From Curvibacter microcysteis (GTDB lineage: Bacteria; Pseudomonadota; Gammaproteobacteria; Burkholderiales; Burkholderiaceae_C): 64,000 bases of DNA. Under the pieces are notes generated by a model. It searched no databases. It was not told the DNA's origin and was given only the letters and a program-made list of their open reading frames with translations. How positions within the stretch are numbered: position 1 is the stretch's first letter; each line of letters begins with the position of its first letter. Made by a program: the position numbers and the translations under genes. The DNA is taken from the NCBI RefSeq assembly GCF_028649455.1, contig NZ_JAQSIO010000013.1:1-64000 (forward strand), written 5' to 3'. Shown piece by piece: positions 3,045-48,532 of the stretch.

Positions 3045-4088
3045 TCAGCCCGGGAAGTTGTCCGGTACCTTGGCCTTGCCGCGCGCTTCAGCTGGACTGA
3101 TGACGTTGCGCCGCACCAGGTCACTCAGGCACTGGTCCAGCGTCTGCATCCCCATGCTGTTGCCGGTCTGGATGGCGGAATACATCTGCGCCACCTTGGC
3201 CTCGCGGATCAGGTTGCGGATGGCGCTGGTGCCGACCATGATTTCATGCGCGGCCACGCGGCCTTGGCCGTCCTTGGTCTTGCACAAGGTTTGTGAGATC
3301 ACCGCCTGCAACGACTCAGACAGCATGGCGCGCACCATCTCTTTTTCTTCCGCCGGGAACACGTCAATGATCCGGTCGATGGTCTTGGCCGCGCTCGAGG
3401 TGTGCAGCGTGCCAAACACCAGGTGCCCTGTTTCCGCCGCGGTCATGGCCAGGCGGATGGTTTCCAGGTCGCGCATTTCACCCACCAGAATGGCGTCCGG
3501 GTCTTCACGCAGCGCGGACTTGAGCGCCGCGTTGAAGCTCAGGGTGTGCGGGCCAACCTCGCGTTGGTTGATCAGGCACTTCTTGGACTCGTGCACAAAC
3601 TCGATCGGGTCTTCCACCGTCAGGATGTGGCCGTACTCGTTTTCGTTGAGGTAATTGACCATGGCGGCCAAGGTGGTCGACTTGCCCGAGCCTGTGGGGC
3701 CCGTGACCAAGACCAAGCCCCGGGGCTTGAGGGCCAGGTCGGCAAAAATCTTGGGCGCGTTGAGTTGCTCCAGCGTCAGGATCTTGGACGGAATGGTTCG
3801 GAACACCGCGCCCGAGCCGCGCTGGTGGTTGAAGGCATTGACCCGGAAGCGGGCCAGACCTTCGATCTCGAACGAAAAGTCGACCTCCAGAAACTCTTCA
3901 TACGCTTTGCGCTGCGAGTCATTCATGATGTCGTACACCATGGCGTGCACGGTCTTGTGGTCCAGCGCATCCACATTGATGCGGCGCACGTCGCCGTGGA
4001 CCCGGATCATGGGCGGCAGCCCGGCCGAGAGGTGGAGGTCAGACGCCTTGTTTTTGACGCTGAAAGCCAGTAACTGGGTGATGTCCAC
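3045..4088 (-). CDS. pilT: PilT, type IV pilus retraction ATPase
   Basis: This 347-residue protein matches PilT along its length. Walker A is GPTGSGKST at residues 130-138. The Asp and Walker B boxes are ILTVEDPIEFVHES and AILVGEMRDLET, and the His box is GHLVFGTLHTSSA. PilT hydrolyses ATP to pull pili back through the inner-membrane platform. The start is a GTG at 4088, preceded on the minus strand by AGAGGGA. It heads the operon with the cyclic-nucleotide-binding gene and pilU, and is divergent from yggS with only 39 bases between starts, so their promoters must overlap. Confidence 0.96.
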   Translation of the reverse strand: MDITQLLAFSVKNKASDLHLSAGLPPMIRVHGDVRRINVDALDHKTVHAMVYDIMNDSQRKAYEEFLEVDFSFEIEGLARFRVNAFNHQRGSGAVFRTIPSKILTLEQLNAPKIFADLALKPRGLVLVTGPTGSGKSTTLAAMVNYLNENEYGHILTVEDPIEFVHESKKCLINQREVGPHTLSFNAALKSALREDPDAILVGEMRDLETIRLAMTAAETGHLVFGTLHTSSAAKTIDRIIDVFPAEEKEMVRAMLSESLQAVISQTLCKTKDGQGRVAAHEIMVGTSAIRNLIREAKVAQMYSAIQTGNSMGMQTLDQCLSDLVRRNVISPAEARGKAKVPDNFPG

Positions 4089-4127
4089 GAATTCCCTCTT
4101 GGTTGTTTGCTACGCTCTGAGGCAATT

Positions 4128-4868
4128 ATGACGATGATTGTTAACAAGCTCCACCTGGTGCGGGATCGCATTCACCAGGCTTGCCAAGACGCCGGCCGTG
4201 ACCCTGCTTCTGTGCAGCTGCTGGCCGTGTCCAAGACCTTCGGTCCCGAGGCTGTGCGCGAGGCGGCCGCGGCTGGCCAAACGGCTTTTGGCGAGAACTA
4301 CCTGCAAGAGGGCGTGGACAAGATGGCGGCTTTGGACGCCCCGCCCCATCCCCTCCTGCCCCGCCCGGCGTGGCATTGCATTGGTCCGGTGCAGTCCAAC
4401 AAGACCAAGCTGGTGGCGACCCATTTTGACTGGCTGCACACCCTGGATCGGCTCAAGATCGCCCAGCGCCTGAATGAGCAACGCGGTGACGACCAGGCCC
4501 CCTTGCAGGTTTGCCTGCAGGTCAACATCGACGGCGGCGCCAACAAATCCGGACTGGCGCCCCAAGAGGTGTTGCCCCTGGCCCGCGCGGTCCTGGGCCT
4601 GCCCCGGCTGCGCCTGCGCGGCCTGATGACCATCCCGGAACCTCAACCTGATTTCGAGTCGCAAAAGCAAGTGCACCTGCAGGCGCGAGCGTTGTTCGAC
4701 TTCGTGCGTCAGACCTTGCTGGAGGAGGGCCTGCCCGGTTCCGCCGACTTTGACACCCTGTCCATGGGCATGACGGGCGATCTGGAGGCGGCCATCCATG
4801 CGGGCAGCACGATGGTGCGGGTGGGCTCGGCTATTTTTGGTGGGCGCAGTTACCCTGCCGCGACTTGA
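4128..4868 (+). CDS. yggS: YggS-family pyridoxal phosphate homeostasis protein
   Basis: The 246-residue product is a PLP-binding TIM barrel. The PLP lysine is in LLAVSKTFG near residue 36, followed by the signature AFGENYLQE. The phosphate-binding end is marked by LSMGMTGDLEAAI and STMVRVGSAIFGGR. YggS proteins carry PLP and buffer the free cofactor pool in the cytoplasm. No catalytic activity is established. ATG 4128 is chosen because GAGG lies just upstream; a TTG at 4107 is the alternative. Placement next to pilT is common in proteobacteria. Confidence 0.93.
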   Translation: MTMIVNKLHLVRDRIHQACQDAGRDPASVQLLAVSKTFGPEAVREAAAAGQTAFGENYLQEGVDKMAALDAPPHPLLPRPAWHCIGPVQSNKTKLVATHFDWLHTLDRLKIAQRLNEQRGDDQAPLQVCLQVNIDGGANKSGLAPQEVLPLARAVLGLPRLRLRGLMTIPEPQPDFESQKQVHLQARALFDFVRQTLLEEGLPGSADFDTLSMGMTGDLEAAIHAGSTMVRVGSAIFGGRSYPAAT

Positions 4869-4953
4869 GCGAACCCGAACCAGTTGAAGCGCGCCGGGGT
4901 CAGCCCTGTGATGTGGCCGGGCCCACCGGCCGGTGACCTGGAACCGGCCCGGC

Positions 4954-5430
4954 TCAGAGCAGGCGCAAATGGGTGGAGTTTTTCACTTCTTCCATGACCG
5001 CGTAGGTGCGGGTTTCCCGAACCCCCGGCAGCTGCCACAGCACGGTGCCAGCAAAGGCGCGGTAGGAGGCCATGTCGGCCATGCGCGTCTTGAGCAGGTA
5101 GTCAAAGCCACCCGCCACCATGTGGCATTCCATGATCTCTGGGCGCACCTGGACGGCCGCTTGGAACTCATCGAACACATTGGGTGTGGTGCGGTCCAGC
5201 AGCACCTCGACAAACACCATCATCGCCGCGCCCAGCTTGAGTGGGTTGAGCCGCGCCTCGTAGCCGAGGATGTAGCCCTCGCGGGTCAGCCGCTGCACGC
5301 GCGCCAGCACCGCCGTGGGCGACAGGCTCACGCTCTCCGCCAATTTGAGGTTGGACAGGCGACCATCTTGCTGCAAGGCTTGCAGGATCTTCAGGTCGAT
5401 GCGGTCCAGTTCAGGCAGGGGGGAGTTCAT
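4954..5430 (-). CDS. Lrp/AsnC-family transcriptional regulator
   Basis: This 158-residue protein begins at ATG 5430; sequence upstream in frame does not look like protein. An N-terminal winged helix-turn-helix (LDRIDLKILQALQQDGRLS, then SPTAVLARVQRL) is followed by an AsnC/RAM ligand-binding domain with VAGGFDYLLKTRMADM. Such proteins are octameric DNA-binding sensors of amino acids. It is most like the Lrp/BkdR branch. It sits convergent to yggS and has an unusually long empty upstream region, so its target may be itself or a distant locus. Confidence 0.88.
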   Translation of the reverse strand: MNSPLPELDRIDLKILQALQQDGRLSNLKLAESVSLSPTAVLARVQRLTREGYILGYEARLNPLKLGAAMMVFVEVLLDRTTPNVFDEFQAAVQVRPEIMECHMVAGGFDYLLKTRMADMASYRAFAGTVLWQLPGVRETRTYAVMEEVKNSTHLRLL

Positions 5431-5823
5431 GGGCGTTTGGTGGTGAGGCTGCCCGATTATGGAGAAAGTCACCTGGATGAAACTGAAATGCCCGTGAGTT
5501 CGTCGGTGAACCCTGCGTGAAGCAGAGAGCGCCGGGCAGAGCTGCTCAGGTATCGCCGTCCATTCGACATGGACGCCCGACTGGCGAATGACCATGCCCA
5601 CGGCCCCGGGCCAAAGACGGGGCTGTCGCTGTGCATGCCATGTCCGGGCCCCGTGGCGCAAAGGGCTTTGGCGCGCAAAGTCCTCCGTGGAGCCCCCCAC
5701 CAAAGCGGTGCCAGGGCCAGATTGTCGCCATGAACTCTGCGGCACACTGGCGCACCAGTGACCGAGCGGCGAGAGCCTTCATGCCAGACGCACTGGGCCC
5801 GTGGACCGATCCAAGGAGACGCG
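5431..5823. other. Gene-poor interval between the Lrp gene and a TonB receptor
   Basis: About 390 bases with no convincing gene. It contains a perfect 6-bp stem, CACTGG/CCAGTG around CGCA (5745-5760), within a GC-rich stretch before the receptor start. I looked for the conserved cobalamin riboswitch core and did not find it. A minus-strand segment near 5720-5750 would read AAEFMATIW, faintly like the start of an aquaporin, but nothing in frame follows. Confidence 0.4.
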
Positions 5824-7959
5824 ATGCTCCCTCCTCCCCCCCACCGCGCGCGCGTCGTTCACGCGCGGTTCAATCCCCGCGCGGCGCTGGCTGCCTTGCT
5901 GTGTTGGGGCGGCGGCGTGGTCTGCGCACAGACCTTGTCGGACGTGGTGGTGTCGGCCAGCCGCAGTGAGCAAAAGGCCATGGATACAGCGGCCTCGATC
6001 AGCCTGATTCAGCAGGACCAGATTCAAGAGGGCCAGGCCCAGGCCCATCTCTCTGAAGCCTTGGTGCGCGTGCCCGGTGTGTCGGCGCTGAACCGGCACA
6101 ACCACGCCCAGGACCTGCAAATTTCGGTGCGCGGCTTCGGTGCCAACTCCACCTTTGGCGCGCGCGGCCTGCGCATCCTGGTCGATGGCATCCCCGGCAC
6201 TGTTGCCGATGGGCAGGGTCAGATCTCGCACATCGACCTGGCCTCTGCCGCGCGCATCGAGGTCCTGCGCGGACCGTTCTCAACCCTTTACGGCAACGCC
6301 TCTGGCGGGGTGATCCAGGTCTTCACCGAACAGGGCCAAGCAGGTCAGCAGCTCACCCCTTACCAGGAGACCGGCTCCTACGGCTTTGACAAGGGCGGCA
6401 TCAAAGCCAGCGGCGAGCAAGACGGGATCAACTACCTGTTGGACGCCGGTCGTCTGCACAGCGATGGTTTTCGCCAGCACAGTGCCGCCACGCGCAGCAA
6501 CGGCAATGCCAAGCTGAAGCTGGACCTGGGGCGTGGCACCCAGGTCCAACTGGTGGCCAACACCGTGTCTTTGAACGCACAAGACCCGCTGGGCTTGACG
6601 CGCACGCAGTGGCAGCAAAACGAGCGCCAGGCTGGCCACAACGCGCTCGCCTACGACACCCGCAAATCCGTGCACCAGACCCAGTACGGCCTGGTGCTGA
6701 CCCAGCAGGTCGACGGTCTCAACACCGTGGTGATTTCGCCTTACTACGGCGAGCGCCGCACCACCCAGTTCCTGGCCGGCAGCGCTGCCAGCGGTGCCAC
6801 CCCGGCCAGCAATGGCGTCATCAAGTTGTCCCGCACTTTTTATGGCGTAGACGCCCATTGGCGCCACCAAGATCAACTGGCGGGTGGTCCCTGGCATTGG
6901 GTGGCCGGGTTGGACACCAACCGCAACAGCGACCGCCGACTGACCGCCAACAACATGGCGGGCATCGCCTTGCCAACCGCCGCCAGCCACCAGGACCTGC
7001 GCCAGTACGCGAGCAACCTCGACGGCTACCTGCAGACCGAGTGGCGGCCCGAGCCGCGCAGCACCCTCGGTGCCGGTCTGCGCCAGTCACACACCGAGTT
7101 GGGATCGACCAGCAGCAACGCCCAGCCCGGCAGCGGGCAGAGCCGCTACAACGCGACCACGGGCCTGCTGTCGGCTCAGCACCATGTGCGCGACGACACC
7201 CATGTCTACCTCGCCTTCGGCACTGGCTGGGACACCCCCACGCTCAACCAAGTGGCCTACAACCCGGCCACCTTGCTCAACAGCGGCGTACCCAACGCCG
7301 GCAACTTCGGCTTGCAGGCTGCGCGCACGCGTCAGTGGGAGCTGGGCCTGAAAAGCGAGCTGGCCGACGGCGCCCGTGTGCAGGCCGCCTGGTTCGATGC
7401 CCGCACCCGCAACGACTTGGTGATCGGCGTCAGCAATGGTGGCCGCACCGCCTTCACCAACACGCCCCAAACCAGTCGCCAAGGCCTCGAATTCAGCGCC
7501 CATGTGGACCTGCTCCGGCAGTTGCAGCTCAACAGCGCGCTGACCCTGATGCGCGCCACGGTGGACACGCCCTACACCAGCTACGCGGGCAGCAGCCCAG
7601 TCACCATCGCAGCGGGCCGGCGTATCCCCGGTGTGGCCGGGCGCAGCCTCTACACCGAACTGCTGTGGCAGCGCGCCGACAAGGCCTGGGAGTTCGCCAT
7701 CGAGGGCCGCGCCGTGGGCAACATGGCGGGCAACGATGCCAACACCGCTTGGGCCTCGGGTTACGGATGGCTCAACGCGCGTTGGTTGACCCGCCAGCAG
7801 CTGGGGCCTTGCTTGGTGACGGGCTTTGTGCGGGTAGACAACCTTTTGAATCGGTCCTATGTGGGATCGATGATCGTCAACCAGGCCAACAGCCAGTTCT
7901 ATGAGCCGGCCCCCGGGCGCCAATGGCTGCTGGGGGTCAAGGCCTTGTGGCGGTATTGA
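5824..7959 (+). CDS. TonB-dependent outer membrane receptor
   Basis: The 711-residue product starts at ATG 5824, with AAGGAG 6 bases upstream. A signal peptide ends near VVCAQ, the TonB-box-like DVVVSASR follows, then a plug domain (QISVRGFGANSTFGARGLRILVDGIP; RIEVLRGPFSTLYGNASGGVIQV) and a 22-strand-type barrel ending in aromatic LKALWRY. Such receptors import iron chelates, cobalamin or other scarce ligands using TonB energy. The ligand cannot be read from the sequence. The plug resembles FecA/PupB-type iron receptors, but no siderophore genes or sigma/anti-sigma pair are nearby. It is flanked by an Lrp gene and by a convergent ABC-type binding protein, and appears monocistronic. Confidence 0.87.
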   Translation: MLPPPPHRARVVHARFNPRAALAALLCWGGGVVCAQTLSDVVVSASRSEQKAMDTAASISLIQQDQIQEGQAQAHLSEALVRVPGVSALNRHNHAQDLQISVRGFGANSTFGARGLRILVDGIPGTVADGQGQISHIDLASAARIEVLRGPFSTLYGNASGGVIQVFTEQGQAGQQLTPYQETGSYGFDKGGIKASGEQDGINYLLDAGRLHSDGFRQHSAATRSNGNAKLKLDLGRGTQVQLVANTVSLNAQDPLGLTRTQWQQNERQAGHNALAYDTRKSVHQTQYGLVLTQQVDGLNTVVISPYYGERRTTQFLAGSAASGATPASNGVIKLSRTFYGVDAHWRHQDQLAGGPWHWVAGLDTNRNSDRRLTANNMAGIALPTAASHQDLRQYASNLDGYLQTEWRPEPRSTLGAGLRQSHTELGSTSSNAQPGSGQSRYNATTGLLSAQHHVRDDTHVYLAFGTGWDTPTLNQVAYNPATLLNSGVPNAGNFGLQAARTRQWELGLKSELADGARVQAAWFDARTRNDLVIGVSNGGRTAFTNTPQTSRQGLEFSAHVDLLRQLQLNSALTLMRATVDTPYTSYAGSSPVTIAAGRRIPGVAGRSLYTELLWQRADKAWEFAIEGRAVGNMAGNDANTAWASGYGWLNARWLTRQQLGPCLVTGFVRVDNLLNRSYVGSMIVNQANSQFYEPAPGRQWLLGVKALWRY

Positions 7960-42659: not shown

Positions 42660-43307
42660 TTACTTCTTGTTGCGGGCCAGCATCAGCGCCGTGTTGGTCT
42701 TGCGGTCGGCGTTGATCTTTTGCACATGGGGGCGTTCGCCCAGGCGCTTGAGGTAGTCGCGCACCGGCAGGTGCTCCAGGAAGTCACGCCCGTAAACGAT
42801 CTTGGTGGCGCCACTGATCAAGGGCAAATGCACCACGGCGGCGCAGTCGGCCAGGGTGAACTGCTCCCCGGCGATGAACGGCTTGTCGAATTGGGTCAGG
42901 CGAGCCAGGCCGGCGATGTTCTTTTCGAGTTGCGCGGCTGTTTTGGCTTGGGTGCCATCGCTGACCTGGCCACCGAAGAAGGCTTGCGGGTAAATCTGGC
43001 GGGCCACCAACTCCAGGTGCAGTTCCAAGAAGGTGGTGATCTCGTGCACTTTGGCGGCGGCAAATGGGTCGGCTGGCAGCAGCGGGTGTTCGGGGTGGGC
43101 GCGCTCCAGGTAGTTCTGGATCACTTCGGACTCACACAGCGCGCCTTGGGGGGTGCGCAGGTAGGGCACTTTGCCCAGCGGGCTGGCGCTCAAGTCCACC
43201 TCCCCAACCCAGGCCAGTTCTTCCTCAAAAGGAAGGCCTTTTTCCAGCAGGGCCAGTTTGACCTTGTTGTAGTAGTTGCTGGCAGAAAATCCGCAAAGTT
43301 GAAGCAT
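42660..43307 (-). CDS. Glutathione S-transferase
   Basis: The 215-residue protein has the thioredoxin-fold N-terminal domain (MLQLCGFSASNYYNKVKLAL, GKVPYLRT, ESEVIQNYLE for the glutathione gamma-glutamyl site) and an all-helical C-terminal domain. It conjugates or reduces substrates with glutathione in the cytoplasm; the specific substrate is unknown. It is transcribed alone, divergent from the copper-related cluster starting at 43433. Confidence 0.9.
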   Translation of the reverse strand: MLQLCGFSASNYYNKVKLALLEKGLPFEEELAWVGEVDLSASPLGKVPYLRTPQGALCESEVIQNYLERAHPEHPLLPADPFAAAKVHEITTFLELHLELVARQIYPQAFFGGQVSDGTQAKTAAQLEKNIAGLARLTQFDKPFIAGEQFTLADCAAVVHLPLISGATKIVYGRDFLEHLPVRDYLKRLGERPHVQKINADRKTNTALMLARNKK

Positions 43308-43432
43308 GGAGGTCTCCGGGGGCGTTGTGTTGTGTTGAGGGGCTGATCGAGCAGCCCGGCCTATCGTAAAGCGCGCGTTGCCGTTCGAGCGTCTCTGGCT
43401 TGACTGGCTTGACTTTCGGCATAATTCGCTCC

Positions 43433-43795
43433 GTGAAAACCCTAGGTTCCCGCCCCCACATGGCCCAGTTCGTGCTGGCCTGGTTCGTGCTTTTTGTGAG
43501 CGCGTCGGTGGCGTCGCCCCTGATCAAGCCGGTGGACCTGCAATTGGTTTGTTCGGCGCTGGGGGCCAGCCGCTGGGTGGACCGTGAGGCCTTGGGCTCG
43601 GAAGCGCGCGACACCCCTGGGTCGACCCTGGATTGCCCGGCCTGCTTGCCTGGGCTGATACCCGGTCCCGCCCCGGTGCCGGCTTGGGCCCTCCGGGGGC
43701 TGGGGTCTGCCCTGGTCCTGCCTGCCCCGCCCGGGTTGTGGGCTGGGGCCCGACCGACGCCTTTTGCGGCCCGTGCCCCGCCTGTGTTGTCCTGA
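43433..43795 (+). CDS. DUF2946 small protein, copy 1 (candidate copper-sensing leader ORF)
   Basis: The 120-residue product starts with GTG 43433, where it lines up with copy 2 (44548-44904). After a hydrophobic, signal-like N-terminus (AQFVLAWFVLFVSASVASPL), Cys40 falls in LVCSALG and Cys68/Cys71 form LDCPAC. The C-terminal half is proline-rich and ends ARAPPVLS. Copy 2 has the same three cysteines (Cys40, Cys66, Cys69). DUF2946 proteins in other proteobacteria, as I recall, act as copper-responsive leader ORFs before copper genes. This copy precedes a Crp/Fnr-family gene, 114 bases downstream. It is a paralogue, not a shadow reading: both copies share residue-level alignment. Confidence 0.75.
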   Translation: MKTLGSRPHMAQFVLAWFVLFVSASVASPLIKPVDLQLVCSALGASRWVDREALGSEARDTPGSTLDCPACLPGLIPGPAPVPAWALRGLGSALVLPAPPGLWAGARPTPFAARAPPVLS

Positions 43796-43909
43796 CTTGG
43801 TTTGTTGGGCGCCCACGCGACCGTGAGCCGCCCCCCCGTCAGCCTTTGGTTCGAGCTGCTGCATTTTTTGAGCGGGCAGCTGACCACCAGACAACACAAG
43901 GAGGTCGAG

Positions 43910-44494
43910 ATGACCCAAGAAGTTTTGCAAGACACCCAGCCTGCCACCGCCGCCGAAGCGCGTGCCCTGGCCATGGGCGAGCGTTTGCTTGATGCCGGCC
44001 AGGTGGGCCCGGTGTGGCGCGTCACGCGCGGTGTGTTCCGCCTGGAGCGCCTGAGCGACGAAGGCTGGTCTTTCGTGCAACTGGCCTTGCCCGGCGACCT
44101 GATCGGGGTGGAAGCCCTGTGCTCGGACGCCTATGCGTTTGGCGCCACCGCGGTGGTGGACAGCGAGGCCGTCGCCCTGACCCTGGAGAGCGACAGCTTG
44201 CGCCACCAGGTGCTGGCCGACGCCTTCTTGCAGCAGCAGCGCCGCAGCGCCGAGGCCGTGCGCCTGCGCAGCGGTACCGTGGCCAGCCGGGTGGACCATT
44301 TCCTGGCCACACTGGCGCACGCCACCGGCGTCATCACCCAGCGGGTGCGTGACTGCGACCTGCCTTACCTGCGCGACATCGCCCTGATCGTGGACTCGGC
44401 CCCCGAGAGCGTGTGCCGCGCCATGGGCAGCTTGGTGGCGCCGCGCACCCGCGCGCGCCCAGCCCGCCGCAAGCTGAGCCCCGCGCTGGCGTAA
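43910..44494 (+). CDS. Crp/Fnr-family transcriptional regulator
   Basis: The 194-residue protein starts at ATG 43910, with AAGGAGG 5 bases upstream. A cyclic-nucleotide-binding-like beta-roll (VTRGVFRLERLSDEGWSFVQLALPGDLIGVEAL) leads into a C-terminal winged helix (LPYLRDIALIVDSAPESVCRAMGSL). It lacks a typical Fnr N-terminal four-cysteine cluster and a full cAMP phosphate-binding cassette. Three cysteines lie scattered in the chain. Placed between two DUF2946 ORFs and ahead of a TonB receptor, it is the probable regulator of the cluster; its signal is unknown. Confidence 0.82.
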   Translation: MTQEVLQDTQPATAAEARALAMGERLLDAGQVGPVWRVTRGVFRLERLSDEGWSFVQLALPGDLIGVEALCSDAYAFGATAVVDSEAVALTLESDSLRHQVLADAFLQQQRRSAEAVRLRSGTVASRVDHFLATLAHATGVITQRVRDCDLPYLRDIALIVDSAPESVCRAMGSLVAPRTRARPARRKLSPALA

Positions 44495-44547
44495 AAGCCA
44501 CAGCCCGCCTCGGCAAGCGGATGGGCGGCATTGCATAATGCGAGGCC

Positions 44548-44904
44548 ATGCAAACCCTGCGCTCGCTTCGAACCATCGTCCAGCTGATGCTGGCGTGTTT
44601 CGTGCTGTCGCTGGGGGTGGCGGTGGCCTCGCCTTTGGTGGCGCCGCAGTCCATGGAATTGGTGTGCTCGACCGCTGGGGCGGTGAAGCTGCTGGTGAAA
44701 GCCGAAGACGGCGTGCAAGAGCAGCGCGGTCACACCCTGGATTGCCCCCTGTGCGCCGCGCTCGGGGCACCGATTGACGTGCCCAACGTGGCACTTCCCC
44801 TGGTCCAGCCCCTGGGCCATGTGCTGCAAAGCATCCCGGCGGCCCGCATCGCGGCCCTCACCGCCGCGCCCCTGCCGCCCCGCGGCCCCCCGCTGAACGC
44901 CTGA
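44548..44904 (+). CDS. DUF2946 small protein, copy 2, leader ORF of the TonB receptor
   Basis: The 118-residue product has an N-terminal hydrophobic segment (LMLACFVLSLGVAVASPL), Cys40 in LVCSTAG, the CxxC Cys66/Cys69 (LDCPLC), and the proline-rich end PLPPRGPPLNA. The PPRGPP-type end is the kind of sequence that slows ribosomes. It ends 75 bases before the receptor start, and a stem-loop lies between. Known relatives (DUF2946 of Bordetella and Rhodobacter copper operons) couple copper level to expression of the gene downstream, as I recall, so a leader function is likely here. Confidence 0.78.
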   Translation: MQTLRSLRTIVQLMLACFVLSLGVAVASPLVAPQSMELVCSTAGAVKLLVKAEDGVQEQRGHTLDCPLCAALGAPIDVPNVALPLVQPLGHVLQSIPAARIAALTAAPLPPRGPPLNA

Positions 44905-44921
44905 ACCCCCACCCCTTGGCT

Positions 44922-44950
44922 GTCCGTGCCCGGCTGTGCGCCACGCGGAC
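44922..44950 (+). promoter_or_regulatory. Stem-loop between DUF2946 copy 2 and the receptor gene
   Basis: GTCCGTG (44922-44928) can pair with CACGCGGAC (44942-44950), leaving a 2-nt bulge, in the 75-base gap before the receptor. The AGGAG ribosome-binding site (44970-44974) lies 19 bases after it. It could be part of a copper-responsive leader. Thermodynamic support was not computed. Confidence 0.35.
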
Positions 44951-44979
44951 GCTGTGTTGTGTTCTTTTCAGGAGTTCCC

Positions 44980-47355
44980 ATGCGCCCAAGTCGCATGGCC
45001 GTGGCCCTGGCCACCGCCTTTCCCCGGGCTTTGCCCGCCGTGTTCACCCCTTTTCTGATCGCGGGCCTGTCCCCGGTCATGGCCCAGGCGCAAGACGCCG
45101 CCCCCAGCAAGTCGCTGGGCGTGGTCACCGTCACGGGCGGGCAGCCGAGCTCGCTGCCCACGCAAATCCCCACCACCATGGAGAGTGCGACCCGCGAGCA
45201 GATCCAGGAAACCATCAACGCCACCGACAGCGAAGACGCGCTCAAGTATTTCCCCAGCCTGTTGGTGCGCAAGCGCTACATCGGGGACTACAACCACGCG
45301 ATCCTGTCCACCCGCGCCTCGGGCACGGGCAACAGCGCGCGCTCCATGGTCTATGCCGACGGCATCCTGCTGTCCAACCTGCTGGGCAACGGCGTCGGCG
45401 GTTTGAGCTTCCCGCCGCGCTGGGGCCTGGTCACGCCGGAGGAGATCGAGCGTGTGGACGTCATGTACGGCCCCTTCTCCGCTGCCTATGCGGGCAACTC
45501 GGTGGGCGCCGTGGTCGACTATGTGACGCGCATGCCCACCCAGTTTGAAGGCCATGTCTCGGCAGGCTTCGTGGTCCAGCCCTTCAGCCTTTACAACACC
45601 AACGACACCTACCGCGCTTGGCAGACCAGCGCTTCGATCGGTAACCGCAGCGGCGACTGGTCCTGGTGGCTGAACTTCAACCACACCGACAGCGATGGCC
45701 AGCCACTGACCTTTGCCACCCGCCTGGTCAGCGCCGGCACCGCCAGCAGCGCGGGCACCGCGGTCAGCGGCGCCGTGGCGGGACGCAACAACGCCAACGC
45801 CCGCTGGCTCATCCTGGGCACGGGCACCCAGTACCACACGCGCCAGGACCACGCCAAGGCGAAGGTGGCTTACGACTTCTCGCCCACGGTGCGGGCCAGC
45901 TACACCCTGGCGACCTGGCAGAACACGTCGCAGGGCAGCCCCTCGTCCTACCTGCGCAATGCCGCCGGCCAAAGCGTTTACAGCGGTGCCATCAACGTGG
46001 GCGGCACCGCGTTCTCGGGCAGCCAGGCCCTGACCGGTGGCGACTTCGTGCAGAGCCAGCAAGAGAGCATCCATGTGATGCACGGCCTGTCGGTCAAGAG
46101 CCACACCCAGGGGGTGTGGGACTGGGAGCTCAGTGGCAGCCTGTACAACTACCAGCGCGACCAGTTGCGCCAGAACGCCGCCAGCAACCCGCTGCCCAAT
46201 GCTTCTTTGGGCGGTGCGGGGACCGTGGCCGATGGCCGGGGCACCGGCTGGAACACCCTGGCCGCGCGCGGCACCTGGCGGCCCGAAGGCGTCAAGGGCA
46301 CGCATGTGTTTGACTTCGGCGTCCAGCAAGACAGCTACCAGCTCAGCTACGTCACCTCCAACATCAGCGGCAACTGGCTGAGCGACCCGGGCGGCAACCT
46401 GGCCGCCAATGTGCAGGGCAAGACCCAGCTGCGCAGCCTCTGGGGCCAGGACGTCTGGGCCCTGGCGCGCGATTGGAAGGCCGTGCTGGGCCTGCGCCTG
46501 GAAAACTGGAGCGCCTACGACGGTCTGACCGCTTTCTCGGCCAGCAGCTCGCAAAACTACGCCAAACGCAGCGAACAGTTCGCTTCGCCCAAGTTCGCGC
46601 TGTCCTACCAATGGCAGCCGGACACCGTGCTCAAGGCCTCGCTGGGCCGGGCCGTGCGCTTCCCCACCGTGGCTGAACTGTATGGCGCGACCTCGACCAC
46701 CAACTCGCAGTACATCAACGACCCCAACCTGAAGCCCGAGAAATCGTGGACCGGCGAGCTGAGCGCCGAGAAGGACCTGGGCAATGCCCTGGCCCGCCTC
46801 ACCTACTTTGCCGAGAACACCCGCGACGCGCTGTACTCGCAGTCGCTCTACGACACCAACGCCAACCGCACCATCAGCCGCGTGCAGAACGTGGGCCGCA
46901 TCGCCACCCAAGGCCTGGAAGCGGCCTACAACGGCCAGGGCGTGGGCTGGCGTGAGCTGGACCTGAGCGGCAGCGTCACCTACGCCCACTCGGTCATCAA
47001 AGAGAACGCGGGCTACGTCAGCACCCCGGGCGACACCCTGGGCAAGCAGCAGCCCAACATCCCGAAGTGGCGGGCCACCGCCTTGGCCACCTGGCGCTTC
47101 AACCCGCAGTGGAGCACCAGCCTGGGCGCGCGCTACAGCGGTCCGCAGTACCGCACGCTCAACAATGCCGACGTCAATGGTTATGCCTACATGGGGGTGA
47201 GCAAGTACTTCACCACCGACCTGCGGGTGCAGTGGCGCATCAACAAGACGCTCACCGCCTCGTTCGGCATCGACAACCTGAACAACTACAAGTACTGGAA
47301 CTTCCACCCCTACCCGCAGCGCAGTTACCACGCCAACCTGAGGGCGGATTTCTGA
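44980..47355 (+). CDS. TonB-dependent outer membrane receptor, probable copper receptor
   Basis: The 791-residue product starts at ATG 44980, with CAGGAG just upstream. A signal peptide ends near VMAQAQ, followed by a TonB-box-like LGVVTVTG, a plug domain (ALKYFPSLLVRKRYIGDYN; YADGILLSNLLGNGVGG; IERVDVMYGPFSAAYAGNSVGAVVDY) and a barrel ending in LRADF. It should import a metal or metal complex driven by TonB. Copper is proposed because the gene lies between DUF2946 and YcnI-PCu(A)C genes; the receptor sequence alone does not prove it. Confidence 0.85.
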   Translation: MRPSRMAVALATAFPRALPAVFTPFLIAGLSPVMAQAQDAAPSKSLGVVTVTGGQPSSLPTQIPTTMESATREQIQETINATDSEDALKYFPSLLVRKRYIGDYNHAILSTRASGTGNSARSMVYADGILLSNLLGNGVGGLSFPPRWGLVTPEEIERVDVMYGPFSAAYAGNSVGAVVDYVTRMPTQFEGHVSAGFVVQPFSLYNTNDTYRAWQTSASIGNRSGDWSWWLNFNHTDSDGQPLTFATRLVSAGTASSAGTAVSGAVAGRNNANARWLILGTGTQYHTRQDHAKAKVAYDFSPTVRASYTLATWQNTSQGSPSSYLRNAAGQSVYSGAINVGGTAFSGSQALTGGDFVQSQQESIHVMHGLSVKSHTQGVWDWELSGSLYNYQRDQLRQNAASNPLPNASLGGAGTVADGRGTGWNTLAARGTWRPEGVKGTHVFDFGVQQDSYQLSYVTSNISGNWLSDPGGNLAANVQGKTQLRSLWGQDVWALARDWKAVLGLRLENWSAYDGLTAFSASSSQNYAKRSEQFASPKFALSYQWQPDTVLKASLGRAVRFPTVAELYGATSTTNSQYINDPNLKPEKSWTGELSAEKDLGNALARLTYFAENTRDALYSQSLYDTNANRTISRVQNVGRIATQGLEAAYNGQGVGWRELDLSGSVTYAHSVIKENAGYVSTPGDTLGKQQPNIPKWRATALATWRFNPQWSTSLGARYSGPQYRTLNNADVNGYAYMGVSKYFTTDLRVQWRINKTLTASFGIDNLNNYKYWNFHPYPQRSYHANLRADF

Positions 47356-47399
47356 TGCCGGGATGCCAAACCAACCAGCGTTCTTCACGGGAGAAACCC

Positions 47400-47939
47400 A
47401 TGTTCTGGATTCGCCTTGTCGGTGCCAGCGCCGCCTTGTTGTCGGCCCTGGCCTCGGCCCACGTCACCCTGGAGCAGCCGCAGGCCGCTGCGGGCAGCGC
47501 CTACAAAGCGGTGTTCAAGGTCGGCCACGCCTGCGCCGGGGCCACCGCCACCACGGGCATCACGGTGCGCCTGCCTGCGGGCTTTCGGGGCGCCCAGCCC
47601 ATCCCCAAGGCAGGCTGGACGGCGCGCGTGCAGCGGGCCCCGCTGGCCGTGCCTTACGAGAGCCATGGCCGGCGCATCACCGAAGACGTGGTCGAGGTCA
47701 GTTGGCGTGCCAACAACGCCGACGCGGCCTTGCCCGGCGCCTTCTACGACGAGTTCACCGTGCGTGGCACACTGCCCGCGAGCGAAGGCGCGCTGTGGTT
47801 CAAGGTGCTGCAAAGCTGTGATGTGGGCGAGGCCGACTGGGCGGAAGTCCCGGCCAGTGGTACGTCCACCGAAGGGCTGAAAGCCCCGGCAGCCCGCTTG
47901 CTGCTCGGCCCCGCTCCGGCTGCGGTCCATGTGCACTGA
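47400..47939 (+). CDS. YcnI-family (DUF1775) copper-binding protein
   Basis: The 179-residue product has a signal peptide ending ASA, so cleavage would leave His21 at the mature N-terminus. This is the residue that YcnI proteins use to bind Cu(II) in a one-histidine brace. The DUF1775 sequence follows (HVTLEQPQAAAGSAYKAVFKV; TGITVRLPAGF; a late KVLQSCDVGEADW). ATG 47400 follows GGGAGA. The protein acts in the periplasm. It lies 44 bases after the receptor and so should share its transcript. Confidence 0.88.
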   Translation: MFWIRLVGASAALLSALASAHVTLEQPQAAAGSAYKAVFKVGHACAGATATTGITVRLPAGFRGAQPIPKAGWTARVQRAPLAVPYESHGRRITEDVVEVSWRANNADAALPGAFYDEFTVRGTLPASEGALWFKVLQSCDVGEADWAEVPASGTSTEGLKAPAARLLLGPAPAAVHVH

Positions 47940-48067
47940 GGCCTGAACCATCGGCCCATCGCCGCGGGGGCCCGTGCCCTTGCCGAACGGGCTGCTTCCA
48001 CCGGCACCTCGAACCTGGGGCGCCACGGTATTACTTTTTTGCTTTCTTCCTTTTCATGGAGTTTTTC

Positions 48068-48532
48068 ATGCGCAAGTTCTCCTCCTGCCTGGGCGCTGCC
48101 TTGCTGGCCCTGTCCTTCACCGCAGGCGCCCAAGTGGTCGATGTGAAGAGCGCCTGGGCCCGTGCCAGCGTGCCGGGTCAAAAGGCCACCGGCGCCTTCA
48201 TGACCCTCACCGCGCCAGCGGGCGCCACCTTGGTCGGCGTGCGCTCGCCGGCGGCGGGCGTGGCCGAAGTGCACGAAATGAAGATGGACGGCGACGTGAT
48301 GAAAATGCGCGCCATTCCCTCCCTGGCCCTGCCCGCGGGCCAGGCGGTGGAGCTCAAACCCGGTGGCTACCACCTCATGCTGCTCGACCTGAAGGCGCCA
48401 CTGGCCAAGGACAGCCAGGTGCCCATCACCTTGGTGCTGCGCGACGCCAAGGGCGTGGAAAGCCAGTTGGAGCTCAAAGTGCCGGTCCAGGCCGTGGCGC
48501 CGGCAGGCGGCATGGCCGGGCATTCGCACTGA
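48068..48532 (+). CDS. PCu(A)C periplasmic copper chaperone
   Basis: The 154-residue protein has a signal peptide ending AGAQ and the exact PCu(A)C copper motif: His69-X10-Met80-X21-His102-X-Met104. Such proteins bind Cu(I) and deliver it to the Cu(A) site of cytochrome oxidase or to other periplasmic proteins. A C-terminal GGMAGHSH adds further metal-binding residues. ATG 48068 is used. Placed after the receptor and YcnI, it completes the copper route. Confidence 0.93.
   Translation: MRKFSSCLGAALLALSFTAGAQVVDVKSAWARASVPGQKATGAFMTLTAPAGATLVGVRSPAAGVAEVHEMKMDGDVMKMRAIPSLALPAGQAVELKPGGYHLMLLDLKAPLAKDSQVPITLVLRDAKGVESQLELKVPVQAVAPAGGMAGHSH

Follow-up and report, generated by a model that had tools for sequence, protein, structure and literature searches.

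The regulators of copper efflux are well known. Copper acquisition under starvation has been called less well known (PMC6769254), and the closest described systems to the locus reported here are operons headed by a short leader open reading frame (ORF) of the CruR type. In Bordetella pertussis, CruR senses copper through its CXXC motif and halts the ribosome through its RAPP motif, and copper brings about Rho-dependent termination ahead of the receptor gene (PMC9426467, Roy 2022; what is said here of this paper and of PMC12992588, PMC10502375, PMC6769254 and PMC5387054 draws on part of each text). CruR homologues head operons with genes for receptors, SCO, PCu(A)C and YcnI (PMC9426467); the RGPP motif, like RAPP, arrests translation, and genes for TonB receptors, YcnI and PCu(A)C are enriched 3' of the ORFs that carry such motifs (PMC12992588). 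We analysed a 64,000-nucleotide stretch of the 4.8-Mb genome of Curvibacter microcysteis (contig C13, NZ_JAQSIO010000013.1, positions 1 to 64,000; hereafter the window), in which six + strand genes at 43433-48532 encode, in order, leader 1, a Crp/Fnr-like regulator, leader 2, a TonB-dependent receptor, a YcnI-like protein and a PCu(A)C copper chaperone. On balance, we lean toward reading these genes as a copper-acquisition cluster with two CruR-type leaders, in which leader 1 gates the regulator and the regulator activates copper-acquisition promoters.

The cluster resembles the CruR-bfrG(crtA)-bp2921 operon of B. pertussis, as far as the parts of the sources used here describe it, in that a CruR-type leader with CXXC and a RAPP motif near the C-terminus comes first and a TonB receptor gene lies in the operon (PMC9426467, PMC12914433). 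The B. pertussis operon contains a PepSY_TM gene and no transcription regulator has been described in it, whereas in the window an additional leader heads the regulator gene, and YcnI and PCu(A)C genes are present. A precedent for regulator genes behind arrest peptides is found in Streptomyces lividans, where genes for extracytoplasmic function (ECF) sigma factors follow two ORFs with RAPP or RGPP motifs (PMC12992588). In a word search confined to main texts, PMC9426467, PMC12992588 and PMC6769254 gave no Crp or Fnr regulator; the main text of PMC12914433 is likewise free of Crp, and Fnr occurs there solely in the name of a funder. The terms 'transcription factor' and 'cytochrome' are absent from the main text of PMC12992588, and cytochrome bd and cydA from both PMC9426467 and PMC12992588. 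In the parts of the texts covered, a review that names both DUF2946 and Crp (PMC10502375) treats the two as unrelated, and 'Fnr family' occurs in PMC5387054 in references on denitrification regulators. Among the papers listed from the searchable literature, which leaves out most subscription papers, none tied CruR, DUF2946 or the acquisition of copper to a Crp/Fnr regulator. The leader-regulator pair, recurring through a copper-tied Crp/Fnr clade, looks undescribed. To the preliminary description of this DNA, a Crp/Fnr-type regulator with its own DUF2946 leader inside such a cluster was not familiar from described copper systems; this holds among the described systems checked, but the part consisting of leader 2, receptor, YcnI and PCu(A)C has already been published. 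Since DUF2946 leaders have been reported as copper-sensing arrest peptides heading such operons, the leader 2 unit is known biology and a fresh example of a published CruR-type operon.

A leader-regulator pair among copper genes

The regulator gene (43910-44494, +; 194 aa) has a GGAGG ribosome-binding site 5' of its ATG and follows leader 1 (uORF1; 43433-43795, +; 120 aa, GTG start), in which CPAC lies at residue 68 and RAPP at residue 114, three residues from the end. The gaps between the six genes are, in order, 114, 53, 75, 44 and 128 nt, and all six are present where the preliminary description had placed them. It had also counted two DUF2946 ORFs, of which only leader 2 (uORF2; 44548-44904, +; 118 aa, CPLC at 66 and RGPP at 112) matches the Pfam family (PF11162; 1e-6, 29.9 bits vs a cut-off of 23.7), there being no match to leader 1 in Pfam. 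We nevertheless count leader 1 as CruR-type because it shares with leader 2 the succession of CXXC, 42 residues, RAPP or RGPP and three last residues, and because it joined a leader family by BLAST when neighbour genes were clustered. Both leaders have a spacing of 42, three below that of B. pertussis CruR and slightly outside the published range; values of 42-47 occur in the direct leaders of relatives.

The closest named relatives at this locus are Curvibacter. A strict-motif leader occupies the position of leader 1 in all six Curvibacter loci that were fetched, and CXXC, RAPP or RGPP, and the spacing are kept in 7/7 loci when the window is included. The complete order of leader, Crp, leader, receptor, YcnI and PCu(A)C, which the preliminary description had proposed to look for in relatives, recurs in four of the six (L016-L019); among these, L017 and L018 come from C. 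lanceolatus ATCC 14669 and C. gracilis ATCC BAA-807. One of the other two (L020) is without leader 2, receptor and YcnI, and the other (L021) has the leader and Crp genes without copper genes.

To place the regulator among other Crp/Fnr proteins, we ran a profile built from 12 relatives against 399 genomes from the family and 399 from the order. At 1e-15, 60 of the former matched (ordinary Crp/Fnr proteins included) and 10 of the latter; as a rule, only the best 8 candidates per genome were scored. The 78 listed matches that were new to the set, the six Curvibacter loci and the window gave 85 Crp/Fnr loci, which were divided by bit score into classes of at least 150 (36 loci), 99-150 (15 loci) and below 99 (34 controls), the 99-bit line having been chosen after the scores were seen. 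A strict CruR ORF on the same strand within 700 bp upstream was present in 27/36, 3/15 and 1/34 loci of these classes, respectively, and a CruR-type ORF within 4.5 kb upstream in 32/36, 12/15 and 3/34. Genes for PCu(A)C, SCO, MbnP or MbnH lay on the same strand within 5.5 kb in 29/36, 8/15 and 2/34 loci, and either a CruR-type ORF or a copper-protein gene was found in 35/36, 13/15 and 4/34. ORFs with the strict leader motif numbered 64 in 626 kb of member loci (the 51 above 99 bits), 7 in 418 kb of control loci and none in 1.04 Mb of reversed sequence.

From a quick maximum-likelihood tree of the 85 proteins, computed with no bootstrap, we picked, after seeing it, a core clade of 36 loci that includes the window (Shimodaira-Hasegawa-like approximate likelihood ratio test, 91). 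Copper-protein genes are nearby in 31/36 core loci, and a CruR-type ORF lies within 4.5 kb upstream on the same strand in 35/36, the exception being L074, in which the contig ends about 0.7 kb upstream. Direct leaders carry the strict motif in 25/36 core loci, and two more (L061 and L086) were recognized by a hidden Markov model (HMM); an HMM leader match at -863 in L078 was judged spurious and not counted as a direct leader. The presence of a direct leader requires at least 11 changes on the tree. A frequent order is CruR, SCO, PCu(A)C, CruR, Crp, followed by a receptor gene or by PCu(A)C, MbnP and MbnH genes. Gene content, together with the tie of the regulator clade to copper genes, gives good support to the copper link of the cluster. 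In a search at 1e-18 with 35 core proteins, only the window's own genome matched in draws of 369 genomes from the class and 299 from the phylum, and the clade, as sampled in these genomes, looks confined to the order and lies mostly in the window's own family. A search of plasmids with the regulator found nothing. In three core loci from another family of the order (L119-L121), the leader-regulator pair has no copper-protein genes beside it and stands behind genes for a flavodoxin-type oxidoreductase and a DsbA-like protein (Pfam on L119).

Regulator protein and candidate binding box

The window protein and its clade are like known Crp/Fnr regulators (LdrP, PRK13918 and PtrA; PDB 5i2d, 3b02 and 2zcw) in having a cNMP-binding-like domain and then what looks like a helix-turn-helix (HTH) as far as the recognition helix, and unlike them in a recognition-helix Cys, the lack of a recognisable wing, a variable tail and the linkage to copper genes. 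The three NCBIfam models matched (LdrP, PRK13918 and PtrA) were far below their cut-offs (for LdrP, 29 of 300 bits). The 12-relative profile matched PDB entries 5i2d (1.2e-12) and 3b02 (6e-12) over positions 14-175, ending at the recognition helix. Pfam cNMP_binding was found in 12/12 profile members (best 4.5e-12) and HTH_Crp_2 in 5/12, the window protein not among them. The recognition helix carries an ExxCR motif whose residues E166, C169 and R170 are invariant in 35/35 aligned core proteins (the 36 core loci less L061), and which occurs in 38/51 members vs 2/34 controls. Past this helix, the core proteins end in a short tail that varies and is often Arg-rich, as it is in the window, and a wing is not recognisable by eye. 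Two attempts to turn this into a count were dropped: a regular expression for the wing was too strict (2/34 controls and 0/51 members), and the share of Lys and Arg in the tail did not separate the means (0.17 in members vs 0.15 in controls).

The window regulator has Cys only at 71, 149 and 169, without the N-terminal cluster by which Fnr-type proteins hold [4Fe-4S]. The N-terminal Fnr cysteines are missing in the core proteins, as is, in most of them, the phosphate-binding Arg of Crp, and no conserved set of copper ligands was seen by eye in the core proteins. In the absence of an Fnr Cys cluster or visible copper ligands, the copper signal probably reaches the regulator via the leader and not through sensing of its own. 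ExxCR resembles the ExxSR of Fnr, and on the basis of this likeness an Fnr-like half-site would be expected in the DNA.

A palindrome scan of 4096 patterns, in which the ranking was limited to those present in at least 12 of 64 regions before leaders, placed TTGAC-N4-GTCAA first, with 12/64 regions vs 2.0 expected from ten shuffles. The more relaxed TTGAY-N4-RTCAA, allowing up to 2 mismatches, lies 20-22 bp upstream of the -10 box in 7/33 member leader promoters vs 0/24 controls (Fisher p 0.017), the 33 and 24 promoters being those with a -10-like box among 70 member and 43 control leaders; the control leaders belong to 40 loci of genomes in which the regulator profile had no match, most of these loci being top entries in the list of DUF2946 matches. 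In each of the seven, the leader that bears the box is the most upstream leader seen and not the regulator's own. With up to 1 mismatch and at any position upstream, the box precedes 10/70 member leaders (0.33 in shuffles). Binding of the regulator to DNA, and activation and control of copper genes by it, are what we infer. The genome of the window also holds two further CruR-type leader-receptor units, on contig C3 near 177536 (+) and on contig C9 near 174063 (-) (L177 and L178); their receptors match the Pfam barrel and plug, their leaders have a -10-like box near the start as judged by eye, and no regulator gene was seen beside them in the ORF list. These units are candidate targets in trans.

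Proposed switch and alternative readings

By homology to CruR, the leaders of the window would respond to copper as follows. When copper is scarce, the ribosome would stall near the end of the leader peptide, at RAPP or RGPP, Rho would be blocked and the downstream gene would be transcribed; when it is ample, CXXC of the nascent chain would bind copper, the stall would be relieved and transcription would stop early. Leader 2 would in this way gate receptor, YcnI and PCu(A)C, and leader 1 the Crp/Fnr-like regulator, which, once made, would activate copper-acquisition promoters and, in some relatives, the cytochrome bd operon as well, the result being a two-step (feed-forward) copper-starvation switch. 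The base composition near the leader stop codons lends weak support to Rho-type gating. Like the Rho-dependent CruR leader, leader 2 is C-rich and G-poor around its end, C minus G rising to +33% per 78 nt close to the stop codon. Over 51 member loci the mean near the stop was +15% for 30 regulator-heading leaders and +17% for 34 other leaders. Values around the stops of the regulator genes themselves were about +1 to +5%, and those after the stops of PCu(A)C genes reached +9%; a single window of at least +10% is frequent in all of these groups (0.83, 1.0, 0.55 and 0.67, respectively).

The cytochrome bd genes of relatives bear on the second step. L076 has CruR, Crp, cydA and cydB in this order (3118-5893, -), and L090 and L122 have CruR, cydA, cydB and then Crp; L076 is the only one of the three inside the core clade. 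Pfam supports both cytochrome bd subunits in L076, subunit I in L122 and subunit II in L090, and both families lie convergently downstream in L082 and L085. Cytochrome bd needs no copper, and switching it on under copper scarcity would therefore make sense. In L076, L090 and L122 the copper-free oxidase is, from the gene order, apparently under copper-leader control. The window's own genome lacks cytochrome bd subunit I, and the oxidase link is limited to relatives. We propose, tentatively and with less confidence than the main reading, that the regulator is a Crp/Fnr-derived activator without a metal site of its own, which would take its copper signal from a stalling leader and turn on uptake and, in some species, cytochrome bd in place of copper oxidases, in a coherent feed-forward loop whose leader and target operons share the same gate. 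If this is true, an arrest-peptide leader that serves as the copper signal for a transcription factor joins post-transcriptional and transcriptional control in one circuit; a regulon is predicted, and copper supply is linked to the choice of terminal oxidase.

Several observations weigh against the two-step switch of the main reading. In the window itself, the C-over-G stretch of leader 1 is weak, and the regulator falls 1.1 bits under the curated cut-off of cNMP_binding (6.8e-6; 26.4 vs 27.5 bits) and on its own matches none of the HTH models in Pfam. An AlphaFold2 model computed from the window protein and six relatives was not used (mean predicted local distance difference test score 42, predicted template modelling score 0.25). 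TTGAY-N4-RTCAA was not found before the -10 box in the window or in the other Curvibacter loci; the best box of the window has two mismatches and overlaps the -10 box of leader 1. The box with up to 1 mismatch also precedes 2/43 control leaders (0.23 in shuffles), and the comparison favours members over controls, since the box was derived from member leaders; these leaders are also not independent of one another (L060 and L061 are near-copies). A strict direct leader is missing in eleven of the 36 core loci, and in five (L021, L076 and L119-L121) no copper-protein gene is near, their copper link being through the leader alone. Treating all 51 loci above 99 bits as one clade was rejected (approximately unbiased test, p 3e-6), and four controls (L097, L098, L099 and L102) fall among these loci in the tree. 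Finally, boxes of this kind in relatives could serve a global Fnr, and a DUF2946-like leader can have the opposite sign: according to a review, the arrest of CutF occurs when copper is present and raises the downstream oxidase CutO (PMC10502375).

One could envisage that the regulator is an ordinary Fnr-type protein of the oxygen, redox or nitrosative-stress response that is merely co-expressed, with copper control exerted by the leaders alone and no action of the regulator on copper genes. Cytochrome bd genes are typical targets of Fnr-type regulators, and their position beside the regulator (L076, L090 and L122) or convergent to it nearby (L082 and L085), the Crp/Fnr relationship itself, the Fnr-like box that a global Fnr would bind, and the invariant recognition-helix Cys, which could be a redox switch, all fit this explanation. 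We consider it unlikely, although it survives best among the alternatives: with three Cys only, the protein has no N-terminal cluster; copper-protein genes are near in 31/36 core loci vs 2/34 controls; and none of the 24 leader promoters from regulator-free genomes, many of which presumably encode an Fnr, has the box at this promoter position. A second alternative keeps the gate of leader 1 and reverses its sign, so that copper would bring on or lengthen the arrest and the regulator would be produced at high copper, restraining uptake or serving copper stress. CutF sets a precedent (PMC10502375), but the motif set and spacing of leader 1 are those of CruR, whose operon is switched off by copper (PMC9426467), and in the gene orders compared the neighbours of the regulator are genes for acquisition, oxidase assembly and cytochrome bd, not efflux; we regard the reversed sign as improbable. 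The position of the gene inside a cluster that it possibly controls would also suit a repressor that is produced under copper scarcity and limits uptake by negative feedback. Crp/Fnr proteins can repress, but the box of relatives, at 20-22 bp upstream of the -10 box, lies near the position from which class II activators work, which leaves repression with little to recommend it. Least probable of all is that leader 1 is a decayed duplicate of leader 2, a non-functional sensor in a relic pair, as its missing Pfam match and weak C-over-G stretch might suggest, given that its motifs and spacing are kept in 7/7 Curvibacter loci and that leaders stand directly before the regulator in 25/36 core loci.

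Leader promoters, receptor unit and flanking genes

Both leaders are preceded by a -10-like box at a short distance. A putative promoter of leader 1 (43400-43432, +) consists of TTGACT at 43400-43405 and CATAAT at 43420-43425, 7 nt from the start codon; ATAAT is invariant in an alignment of seven Curvibacter loci, and the spacer of 14 nt is too short for standard sigma-70, the consensus scan reporting no site here. Leader 2 appears to have a promoter of its own (44534-44547, +) with CATAAT 8 nt from the leader. GCATAAT is invariant in five Curvibacter loci, and the consensus scan gave TCGGCA-18-CATAAT (1 found vs 0.3 expected). Among the 64 leader ORFs, [TCG]ATAAT lies 6-9 nt before an in-frame start in 25, compared with 0.35 in letter shuffles; one of these (L070) runs into a stop. 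As read from these boxes, the leader mRNAs in the window and in these relatives are probably leaderless or nearly so, unlike that of B. pertussis CruR, the transcript of which starts 45 bp before the start codon.

The receptor gene (44980-47355, +) matches the Pfam barrel (3e-45) and plug (3.3e-10) of TonB-dependent outer membrane receptors. At 1e-5, its only sequence matches in PDB were the haem receptor PhuR (1.5e-14) and a siderophore receptor, with no CrtA. In the CrtA copper receptor family, which has an essential His, a PepSY_TM gene comes next in over 75% of loci (PMC12914433), whereas the receptor gene of the window is followed by YcnI and PCu(A)C. It is plausible that the receptor imports copper. 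The YcnI-like protein (47400-47939, +; DUF1775, 2.8e-40) belongs to a copper-binding family, and the PCu(A)C chaperone (48068-48532, +; Pfam 5.5e-37) has an exact H-X10-M-X21-H-X-M motif; with the start taken at 48068, its residues are His69, Met80, His102 and Met104, exactly as the preliminary description had numbered them. On the 3' side of the cluster lie a gene whose product has no Pfam match and looks phasin-like by eye, and then one for a FIST protein. On the 5' side, a glutathione S-transferase gene (42660-43307, -) is divergent to leader 1, and several relatives likewise have such a gene before the leader that opens their copper cluster.

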